The translations under genes and the position numbers were made by a program. The notes under the pieces are model-generated. The model saw only the letters and a program-made list of their open reading frames with translations. It was not told the origin of the DNA and did no database searches. A DNA stretch of 64,000 bases from Burkholderiales bacterium. GTDB taxonomy: Bacteria > Pseudomonadota > Gammaproteobacteria > Burkholderiales > SG8-41. The stretch spans positions 1-64,000 of the forward strand of contig JAUXMZ010000048.1 in assembly GCA_030683105.1 (NCBI GenBank), given 5' to 3'. Shown here in pieces: positions 17,459 through 63,028 of this stretch. How positions within the stretch are numbered: the stretch's first letter is position 1; the number at the start of each line of letters is the position of its first letter.

Positions 17459-17559
17459 CAGTGTTGAGTTTTTAGTTTTGAGTGTTTAGTTAATACCCCA
17501 TCGGAATTCGAAAACTCAACACTCAACACTCAACACTCAACACTCAACACTCAACACTG
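17459..17559. repeat. Seven-base tandem repeat (CAACACT) with inverted partner
   Basis: The right part (17514-17558) has about six uninterrupted copies of the heptamer caacact. The left part (17459-17491) has the reverse complement in decayed form (agtgttgag, ttttgagtgtt). It fills the gap between two convergent genes and could fold into a hairpin serving as terminator. The same heptamer, reverse-complemented, recurs at 62541. Confidence 0.8.
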
Positions 17560-18745: not shown

Positions 18746-18869
18746 GCCACAGAGGCCACAGAGAACACAGAGAAAAGCGAGAACAAGATCATGCAGCCTC
18801 CCGCGCTTTCCCTTCGGTCGAGGGTTAGGGTGGAGATGTACCTCTGTGATCTCTGTGGCCTCTGTGGCT
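18746..18869. repeat. CACAGAG-family hairpin element
   Basis: Left arm gccacagaggccacagagaa and following bases (18746-18774); right arm of ctctgtgat/ctctgtggc units ending ctctgtggct (18841-18869). The core contains a small hairpin (tttcccttcggtcgagggtta region). The rest of the 316-base gap (18729-19044) holds no gene I can support. Confidence 0.75.
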
Positions 18870-24195: not shown

Positions 24196-24340
24196 AGCCA
24201 CAGAGAGCACAGAGAGCACAGAGAAAAACAACAGAGAAATATTCATAATCCATTGTATATAAACATATTATAAGGCTCCGCCATGGGGTTCTGCTCTGTG
24301 TCCTCTGTGTCCTCTGTGTCCTCTGTGTCCTCTGTGGCTA
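24196..24340. repeat. CACAGAG-family hairpin element
   Basis: Left arm gccacagagagcacagagag and following bases (24197-24236), AT-rich core (about 50 bases, with cattgtatataaacatatta), right arm of four 9-base ctctgtgtc units ending ctctgtggct (24292-24340). Lies between the DUF2721 gene and prpD. Confidence 0.8.
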
Positions 24341-26673: not shown

Positions 26674-26811
26674 GGTTCGCACGGAGAACACGGAGTTCAC
26701 GGAGGTAATTTATGAATTCCTGCTTTTCTCAGTCCACTCCGAGTACCCGTCAAGCGCACCCGTCAAGCGGGTATTGTGAAGAAGGTATTGAAAAGAATTC
26801 TCCGTGCGAAA
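26674..26811. repeat. CACGGAG-family hairpin with nested palindromic module
   Basis: Left arm ttcgcacggagaacacggag and on (26676-26706), core with cctgcttttctcag (26719-26732), then the right arm actccg...ctccgtgcgaa interrupted by a doubled copy of the acccgtcaagcg module (26745-26772) and gaaaagaattc. Its core has the same orientation as the copy at 33149. Confidence 0.75.
26745..26772. repeat. Doubled palindromic module (acccgtcaagcg)
   Basis: Two head-to-tail copies: acccgtcaagcgc then acccgtcaagcgggt. They interrupt the CACGGAG right arm and are followed by attgtgaagaag, as at 30820 and 42491. Confidence 0.65.
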
Positions 26812-45676: not shown

Positions 45677-45790
45677 AGCCACAGAGAGCGCAGAGAACAC
45701 AGAGGAAAACAAACAACGAAACATGATTTGTATCTGATTATTAAATAATATTTATGGTTTCTCTCTGTGAACTCTGTGTCCTCTGTGGCT
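45677..45790. repeat. CACAGAG-family hairpin element
   Basis: Left arm gccacagagagcgcagagaa and on, core with catgatttgtatctgatt and aatatttatgg, right arm ctctgtgaactctgtgtcct and on to ctctgtggct. The core is homologous in the same orientation to the element at 52444 (catg-ttNgtatc-ggtt...ttttat). Confidence 0.85.
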
Positions 45791-52443: not shown

Positions 52444-52556
52444 GCCACAGAGGACACGGAGAACACAGAGGAAAAACCGATAACGAGGCATGTTTCGTAT
52501 CCGGTTGTTTTAAATAAGTTTTTATTCTCTCTGTGAACTCTGTGCTCTCTGTGGCT
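52444..52556. repeat. CACAGAG-family hairpin element
   Basis: Left arm gccacagaggacacggagaa and on, core with ggcatgtttcgtatccggtt and aagtttttatt, right arm ctctctgtgaactctgtg and on to ctctgtggct. Same orientation and homologous core as the copy at 45677; both are followed by a tail ending ctttttga. Confidence 0.85.
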
Positions 52557-53486: not shown

Positions 53487-53513
53487 GGTTGATTCCTAAA
53501 GGCGAAAAACATT

Positions 53514-53542
53514 AGCCACAGAGGACACAGAGGTCACAGAGA
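53514..53542. repeat. CACAGAG left arm flanking the GxxExxY gene
   Basis: agccacagaggacacagagg and on to tcacagaga. The stop codon and last codons (I-S-L) of the leftward GxxExxY gene lie within this arm. Confidence 0.85.
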
Positions 53543-53899
53543 AATCCTTTTGATGCCGTTTCTCAGATGAGATGCGCCAAAGTTAATCAACAGACCGCGC
53601 TTCAAGCCGGCAGCTTTCAGGTAAGACAGGACTTGTGCCATAGCAACATCAGGCAAGTTTCGCACTGACTTGATTTCAATCACTACTTCATCAAATGCCA
53701 GCAAATCTATTCGTTGCCCATGAATAACGCGATCCTTGTAGGTAAGATCGATGACGACCTGCCTCTTGAACGGGATGTTCTGGATCTCAAATTCGCGACA
53801 CATTGCTTCTTCGTAGGTCGATTCGAGCAACCCTGGGCCGAGATTACTATGTACTTCCATAGCTGCGCCGATGATTTTCTCCGTCAGATCGTCGCGCAT
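53534..53899 (-). CDS. GxxExxY protein (PD-(D/E)xK-like), embedded in repeat element
   Basis: A protein of 121 residues of the GxxExxY family: EVHSNLGPGLLESTYEEAMC, with the name-giving G-L-L-E-S-T-Y; then YKDRVIHGQRIDLLAFDEVV and VIEIKSVRNL, giving an Asp ... Glu-x-Lys arrangement as in PD-(D/E)xK nucleases (D near 65, E-I-K near 75). The family has no known function. Its stop codon lies inside the CACAGAG arm at 53514 and its start codon is eight bases from the opposite arm at 53907, with no room for a standard ribosome site except cagag of the arm. The gene thus occupies the place of the core in a hairpin element. Confidence 0.88.
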   Translation of the reverse strand: MRDDLTEKIIGAAMEVHSNLGPGLLESTYEEAMCREFEIQNIPFKRQVVIDLTYKDRVIHGQRIDLLAFDEVVIEIKSVRNLPDVAMAQVLSYLKAAGLKRGLLINFGASHLRNGIKRISL

Positions 53900-53906
53900 A
53901 TCGGAT

Positions 53907-53936
53907 ATCTCTGTGCCCTCTGTGTCCTCTGTGGCT
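53907..53936. repeat. CACAGAG right arm flanking the GxxExxY gene
   Basis: atctctgtgccctctgtgtc and on to ctctgtggct, reverse complement of the arm at 53514. Its last bases also supply the stop codon region of the TPP-enzyme gene that follows. Confidence 0.85.
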
Positions 53937-62540: not shown

Positions 62541-62575
62541 AATGTTGAGTGTTGAGTGTTGAGTGTTGAGTGGCG
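62541..62575. repeat. Seven-base tandem repeat (GTTGAGT)
   Basis: About four copies of gttgagt, the reverse complement of the CAACACT heptamer at 17514, followed by gtggcgagcggtgagcg, which resembles the ctcaccgctcaccg stretch at 31944. Confidence 0.75.
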
Positions 62576-62786: not shown

Positions 62787-63028
62787 TATAATAAAAACAA
62801 CGGGTTAAATTACCCCCGTGAATGAGGGCACGCTGCGGGACAGCGGAACAGTTCTTCGTGCAACATCCGTTTCGCACGGAGCACACGGAGGGCACTGAGA
62901 AAAGCAGAGATTGATGAATTACCTCCGTGAACTCCGTGTGCTCCGTGCGAACCGCAGTTAACGGAATATTGAAAAGAATTCTCCGTGCGAACCCTGACTT
63001 GAATCCGGGGGGAGATCCAATCCAAGGC
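62787..63028. repeat. Composite long repeat, copy 2 (hairpin core inverted)
   Basis: Left flank tataataaaaacaacgggtt and on with ggcacgctgcgggac (62787-62870), CACGGAG hairpin (62871-62953) with core ctgagaaaagcagag, an extra unit gttaacggaatattgaaaag (62956-62975), and right flank to aatccaaggc (63028). Compared with copy 1 at 33062, both flanks run in the same direction but the hairpin core is reverse-complemented. The remainder of the 62533-63200 gap shows no gene. Confidence 0.8.

Follow-up and report, generated by a model that had tools for sequence, protein, structure and literature searches.

GxxExxY genes between inverted arrays of short tandem units suggest an overlooked class of selfish DNA elements

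The window analysed here, a 64,000-nucleotide stretch of the genome of a Burkholderiales bacterium, contains a small gene for a GxxExxY protein lying between two opposed arms built of 9-base CACAGAG units. This arrangement, which had been proposed by a sequence-only reading of the same DNA, was found at the following positions.

53534..53899, minus strand: gene for a GxxExxY protein of 121 amino acids, matching TIGR04256 and PF13366
53517..53541, plus strand: arm of three CACAGAG units with a period of 9, covering the gene's last codons and stop
53909..53933, minus strand: inverted arm of three CACAGAG units with a period of 9, upstream of the ATG
53513..53516, unstranded: outer TAGC, common to several gene-free hairpins of the same genome
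53934..53937, unstranded: outer GCTA, within which the gcl-like neighbour gene has its stop codon
53935-55686, minus strand: gcl-like neighbour gene, its name read from the sequence

Gene and arms together measure about 430 bp and are flanked by two long protein-coding ORFs, the locus not lying in 23S rRNA. One arm does write the last codons and stop of the gene as had been claimed, the TGA at 53534-53536 falling within arm 53517-53541. The ATG had been placed eight bases from the other arm; the actual distance is nine bases (53900-53908).

Profile searches with the window protein gave 132.5 bits against TIGR04256 (E 8.6e-39, curated cut-off 35) and 133.3 bits against PF13366 (E 6.6e-39, curated cut-off 22). 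PF13366 was the sole Pfam match at E up to 1, with no known transposase domain among the results. Six residues (G21, G23, E26, Y29, D65 and R118) were invariant in 63 sequences, and E75-x-K77, Q89 and Y93 were conserved in at least 90% of them; D..ExK..QxxxY is the residue pattern of RecB/Cas4 nucleases. The structure model (pLDDT 95.1, pTM 0.88) found its best solved fold match in SSO0001 (4ic1; Z 9.8, 100 residues aligned, rmsd 4.3), a Cas4 protein; behind it, in the middling range of Z of about 6-8, came restriction-type, Holliday-junction-resolvase and Cas4-type folds. Searched by sequence, solved structures returned one match, at E 0.5. The PD-(D/E)xK-like layout suggested earlier is upheld by the model, by the match to 4ic1 and by the conserved D..ExK with QxxxY, and we are confident in predicting a Cas4/RecB-like PD-(D/E)XK fold and a putative nuclease. 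The GxxExxY protein is under strong purifying selection: in four close pairs dN was 0.011-0.046 and dS 0.16-0.44, three of the seven pairs tried being saturated. A role as a defence gene was considered and rejected, since PADLOC matched Cas4 and candidate PDC models with no E-value stronger than 0.01. Comparison of the window protein with PHROGs gave nothing better than E 0.087.

CACAGAG was present 42 times in the window as against 4.9 expected, an approximately ninefold excess, and the largest count in 100 shuffles was 10. Its tandem form CACAGAGNNCACAGAG occurred 551 times in the 4.12-Mb genome, with 0 occurrences of the same pattern read backwards. A chance origin of repeats and arms was ruled out by the CACAGAG excess, by the CACAGAGNNCACAGAG counts and by the comparison of unit arrays with control ORFs given below. 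Hairpins with such arms and lacking the gene had been reported at 18746, 24196, 45677, 52444 and 57192, and all five are present. The gene-free hairpins of the window (all unstranded) are as follows.

18748..18866: CACAGAG hairpin, core of 69 bp by the script's array definition
24199..24336: CACAGAG hairpin, core of 70 bp
45680..45787: CACAGAG hairpin, core of 58 bp
52446..52553: hairpin with four close copies elsewhere in the genome
57203..57332: hairpin of outer type AAAGCATAGA...TCTATGCTTT, the type of the gene-bearing locus L001
44399..44558: hairpin with arms of CGCCGAT type (AT class)
62875..62947: CACGGAG hairpin

The hairpin at 52446..52553 has core and arms in common with its four copies at 80-90% identity. 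Homology extended past the arms on both sides in three of the four, with L348 reaching hardly past the arm edges. This hairpin and its copies are dispersed close copies with defined ends, as in a MITE family.

A search of the 78 contigs of the source assembly recovered four GxxExxY genes (L001-L004). The gene is found between inverted copies of a genome-dispersed repeat. L001 and L003, the latter being that of the window, lie between two full arms; in L004 the left arm has three units and the right arm just one, beyond which stands a gene-free hairpin, and L002 has the degenerate arm pair CACGAAGGACACAAGG / CCTTCGTGTCCTTTGTGG. An arm-pairing script was applied to 381,388 bases, made up of the window and 16 stretches of the source genome picked for listed repeats, close hairpin copies or a GxxExxY gene. 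The script paired 35 arm sets, 33 of which have cores of 13-170 bp; the two long cores, of 367 and 510 bp, are both GxxExxY genes. L002 and L004 were left unpaired because their arms are degenerate or short, and by eye these genes also lie between inverted arms. The outer-end type TAGC/GCTA (genes L003 and L004), the type AAAGCATAGA (gene L001) and the CACGAAG type (gene L002) were each found both with and without a gene. At 9449-17250 of L360 (G000:C73), three gene-free AAAGCATAGA-like hairpins lie less than 7 kb from a gene-bearing element of that type, a cluster which looks like local spread. A mini-hairpin like ACCCGTCAAGCGGGTATTGAAAAGAA was also seen within several hairpins, at 26745-26797 and in L352 and L360; the ACCCGTCAAGCGGGTATTGAAAAGAA-type pattern had 12 matches in the 381 kb and none in the window, where the copy deviates from the pattern.

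GxxExxY loci were then collected by protein similarity irrespective of arms. The collection held 80 loci from named organisms spread over many bacterial phyla and archaea; 60 further loci, mostly weaker members, from the genomes of 46 of these; 29 loci belonging to the window's own family; 30 loci contributed by the phylum sample, every one in family f33, which is zetaproteobacterial by the contig that L043 and L100 share; and the four of the source genome. L157 was left out, as were the duplicates L333, L338, L340 and L344, the copies of named loci L285, L292, L309 and L332, L043, which is on the contig of L100, and L411, which duplicates the betaproteobacterial record L113. L289 (score 26) was counted, being a second gene on the contig of L101 and not a copy. 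Elements whose units are degenerate or of another kind escaped a strict unit test, and a motif-free test was therefore added, which scored an inverted match within 200 bp on each side of the gene with a threshold of 18.

Inverted flanks scoring at least 18 were found at 151 of 192 distinct GxxExxY loci with all samples pooled. This comprised 59/79 named loci, 43/52 further members of the same genomes, 26/28 loci of the window's own family and 23/33 in f33 and the source genome. Control ORFs, taken from the 80 loci, reached this score in 10 of 245 cases (raw 13/248, before removal of two GxxExxY genes and one Y1 transposase) and in 3/97 when matched for size (80-200 aa). An explicit unit pattern, correctly oriented in each of the two flanks, was present at 52/80 named loci and 26/34 others, and in controls at 1/239, that one being itself a GxxExxY gene. 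The association of GxxExxY genes with arms is general, and its frequency is strongly above that of background ORFs, the opposite of the outcome named beforehand as refuting the sequence-only reading. The remaining 41/192 loci fell below threshold, and no arms were seen at L300 and L315. With respect to archaea, L108 and L339 (one Thermoplasmata genome) passed and L105 (Methanothrix) failed. Among four annotated records, arms were seen in those of Bacteroides finegoldii (radA-GxxExxY), Sphingomonas parapaucimobilis (fabD-GxxExxY-fabG) and Bernardetia; the Treponema saccharophilum record had no clear arms. GxxExxY genes were present in 58/299 sampled genomes of the phylum and matched 7/72,556 plasmid records, and a search of phage records gave zero matches. 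At L320 and L321, whose proteins are GxxExxY variants with LDEKxYE, the arms point outward, as if the gene lay between two hairpins. A separate Y1_Tnp (RAYT-like) ORF at L131:5276-5716 carries its own, different inverted repeat on both sides.

The unit differs from element to element, CACAGAG, CGCAGAG, CGCGGAG, CACGAAG, CACAAAG, CGCCAAG, ACAGGAT, CGCTTAA and others being seen, and a view confined to CACAGAG was abandoned as too narrow. Units of C.C..AT type have longer spacing. Both flanks contained units at 121 loci, and at 89 of these the commonest unit was identical in the two arms, compared with a mean of 13.4 and a maximum of 25 in 1000 shuffles. Unit labels were placed on a tree of 170 proteins, built from few columns and with many weak forks, in which 119 distinct proteins could be labelled (99 AG-ending, 20 AT-ending) and five duplicate pairs were excluded from the counts. 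The distinction between AG and AT units required one change on this tree as against at least 14 in 1000 shuffles. The other variable unit positions required 26, 29 and 21 changes versus 37.5, 35.7 and 33.0 when shuffled, with no shuffle as low. When only AG-type loci of the genomes found by similarity were used the result was weaker, 35, 1 and 14 of 1000 shuffles being as low at positions 2, 4 and 5. One genome (G355) carries both unit classes (L286, L287). Within family f33 gene and repeat co-occur (32/13/7/22, p 1.1e-4). Among the 225 sampled genomes outside f33 the correlation of the gene with a triple AG-type repeat was not significant (p 0.30; 1 with both, 12 with the gene only, 5 with the repeat only and 207 with neither). 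The GxxExxY gene is absent from G037, which has 21 repeats. At trpD-trpC, related GxxExxY genes (L036, L039, L043, L051, L054 and others) have arms of differing units, and both arms have mostly switched unit together, a pattern of concerted arm evolution.

A second, unrelated protein family was found in similar arms, and the architecture is thus wider than first supposed. TIGR02436 four-helix genes (L365-L401) number seven in the source genome and 30 elsewhere, and 32 of these 37 loci have inverted flanks scoring at least 18, with units of 7-8 bp. GxxExxY-type units on both sides were found at none of the 37. L366, the member tested against Pfam 23S_rRNA_IVP, scored above the cut-off. In the Coxiella rRNA IVS, passages of PMC4990558 place tandem heptamers ahead of the IVP-type ORF. 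The window itself contains heptamer arrays of ACTCAAC / TGTTGAG at 17460-17558 and 62543-62572, the first of which resembles an IVP-type hairpin that lacks the gene.

Different genomes carry the element at different gene junctions, and single junctions are occupied in some relatives only. The genes adjoining the window's site are conserved in its family, which is betaproteobacterial by L411, and the site was compared in 15 family genomes. A GxxExxY gene in CACAGAG arms was present in G312 and G323, a truncated gene in G328, and gene-free hairpins with differing units in G300, G325 and G314; none was seen in G304, G319 and G329, and the remainder have other repeats or remnants. The flanks in these 15 genomes are only 69-89% identical, so an exact empty site cannot be read to the base. 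Gene fragments also occur in the window's family, 19 of 68 rows spanning at most 102 of 116 positions. At pyrB-pyrC in f33, 17 of 30 loci were readable on both sides and comprised three gene-bearing elements, two gene-free hairpins, three two-base gaps, one overlap and otherwise other gaps. In L042 and L056 the element at this junction stands in a tandem duplicate that includes about 50 bp of the start of pyrC, and in L056 the first tandem copy is without the gene.

The trpD-trpC junction was examined at 50 zetaproteobacterial loci. Gene-size inserts (>380 bp) were found at 20 and smaller inserts at 5, three of the latter having been read from end to end and being hairpins; 16 sites were empty, 4 had short gaps and 5 were not assessable. 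At the 16 empty sites stop and start overlap as ATGA. The same four bases lie to the left of 11/20 gene-size and 0/5 smaller inserts, at a place where the cell needs a stop and a start, and three of the 11 may owe their ATGA to the element's own TGA-ACC. A four-base target duplication at trpD-trpC is therefore a possible reading, attractive at first and weakened by the count over all inserts. The GxxExxY genes at this junction are nearly monophyletic: under midpoint rooting, 14 distinct ones fall in one clade of 20 leaves. Repeated insertion and a single old insertion, later lost or exchanged, are thus equally possible. With regard to a fixed target of the homing-endonuclease kind, occupation of trpD-trpC recurs in Zetaproteobacteria, but insertion sites differ between lineages. 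The comparison of related genomes that had been suggested as a check thus revealed sites occupied in some relatives and empty in others, and did not establish a target duplication.

That the gene and its arms are one element is well supported. In our judgement this is probably a selfish hairpin element whose cognate nuclease acts on the arms and whose gene-free relatives are moved in trans. The two arms, opposed to each other and each made of about three 7-bp units set apart by short spacers, would be the ends of the element, and the single-domain PD-(D/E)XK nuclease encoded between them would recognise the arm unit. It would nick or cut a target or else the arm, the latter in the form of a duplex, a cruciform or a single-strand hairpin, and the cut would lead to copying of the element into new sites, namely tight operon gene junctions, where insertion may be tolerated. 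The gene-free hairpins that share these arms and outer ends would be non-autonomous relatives mobilised in trans. Action of the GxxExxY protein on the arms appears to be the most economical reading of their co-divergence, and we infer that the protein drives the movement. Against such action speak the non-significant correlation of gene and repeat outside f33, the 41/192 loci below threshold, the outward arms of L320 and L321 and the weakened case for a target duplication. The sequence-only reading had likewise taken gene and arms for an autonomous element and the gene-free hairpins for non-autonomous copies; co-divergence, the matching arms and outer ends and the site polymorphism all argue for this, and protein-driven movement is the part that goes beyond them.

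The hairpins could instead be spread by host processes or some other factor, the GxxExxY gene having been copied into them by recombination between arms and its protein working elsewhere, in repair, defence or RNA processing. The occurrence of repeats in genomes without a GxxExxY gene, the presence of unrelated TIGR02436 in similar arms and the alternation of gene-bearing and gene-free cores at pyrB-pyrC are consistent with such a passenger. We consider it unlikely, however, since the unit class is family-specific (0/37 TIGR02436 loci with GxxExxY-type units on both sides) and the unit tracks the GxxExxY tree, which is not needed of a passenger. Both long cores in the 381 kb are moreover GxxExxY genes, in stretches picked partly to contain them.

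We give little credence to an element working at the RNA level, as in the 23S rRNA IVS, in which the arms would pair in the transcript, the stem would be processed in the manner of RNase III and the protein would bind the folded RNA, with spread by way of RNA, reverse transcription or recombination. At 38/60 loci the gene and its two neighbours all run in one direction, versus 67/141 control triples, a weak excess in favour of this view. The IVP-type family has the same arm architecture at the loci compared here (32/37), and the Coxiella IVS has its tandem heptamers ahead of the ORF in the passages of PMC4990558 already cited. The fold of the GxxExxY protein, however, is predicted to be of DNA-nuclease type with D..ExK..QxxxY, and some loci are not co-directional. 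It is very improbable that the arms are domesticated terminators or regulatory hairpins with a host gene kept beside them: strong purifying selection and long persistence at one junction would fit, but the junctions differ by genome, relatives differ in presence and absence, close gene-free copies are dispersed and fragments of the gene are found. The selfish hairpin element with its own nuclease is the reading that we prefer.

No description of the GxxExxY-arm association was found in the open-access PMC literature, which holds no preprints and few subscription papers, and searches there with the repeat strings gave unrelated matches only. The architecture and the co-change of unit and protein, as read from the sequences compared, suggest what may be an overlooked class of selfish DNA elements. 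The case is evenly balanced for a still broader superclass, pan-prokaryotic in extent, in which a selfish hairpin element carries one small gene and is bounded by inverted arrays built of very short tandem units. It would include at least two unrelated families, each with its own unit class: C.C..A[GT]-like units would go with the GxxExxY Cas4-like nuclease, and units of 7-8 bp with the four-helix protein of 23S-rRNA-IVP type. The rRNA IVS would be a special case, and much anonymous short repeat content would be non-autonomous progeny. The models of the GxxExxY family assign no function, and the link to flanking repeats supplies a testable substrate. It also offers a possible source of widespread intergenic repeats (CACAGAG, CACGAAG, ACAGGAT and their kin) and, if true, would give minimal elements a further way of spreading, one based on a nuclease.

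Several known systems share parts of this design. As with MITEs and their autonomous IS, dispersed gene-free copies have the ends of gene-bearing elements; in contrast to an IS, the GxxExxY gene contains no known transposase domain. The Foldback (FB) and Galileo transposons of Drosophila have long inverted ends of short tandem repeats; these are eukaryotic and much larger than the GxxExxY element and use a different enzyme. With Cas4/RecB nucleases the protein shares its predicted fold and the D..ExK..QxxxY residues, whereas it is shorter than Cas4 (121 versus about 202 residues), matches it in sequence only at E 0.01 and has no cysteine among its invariant and nearly invariant columns.

REP/RAYT systems (TnpA-REP, REPtrons) resemble the present element in their high-copy palindromic extragenic repeats and the solo gene that accompanies these, and in them the protein is described as co-evolving with the repeat (PMC8266576). 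The analogy with RAYT/REP pairs drawn earlier fits the way of working and fails for the enzyme: the window protein is predicted to be PD-(D/E)XK and Cas4/RecB-like and not an HUH transposase, no HUH (Y1) match being found (PF13366 only, at E up to 1), and the Y1_Tnp ORF of L131 was recognised as such. Its arms are, in addition, arrays of about three short tandem units and not one palindrome. The 23S rRNA IVS with an S23p/IVP ORF (PF05635, TIGR02436) also has an inverted-repeat stem and one small ORF; passages of PMC4990558 describe a 428-nt element of this form with a 14.2 kDa ORF, for which mobility was proposed, and the tandem heptamers of Coxiella extend the likeness. The window element lies outside 23S rRNA, between protein genes, its protein is of an unrelated family (no PF05635 match at E up to 1) and its C.C..A[GT]-like units are spaced at 9-12 bp, compared with 7-8 bp in the IVS/IVP type. 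The parallel with the rRNA IVS, if true, would reopen the question of how those sequences move.
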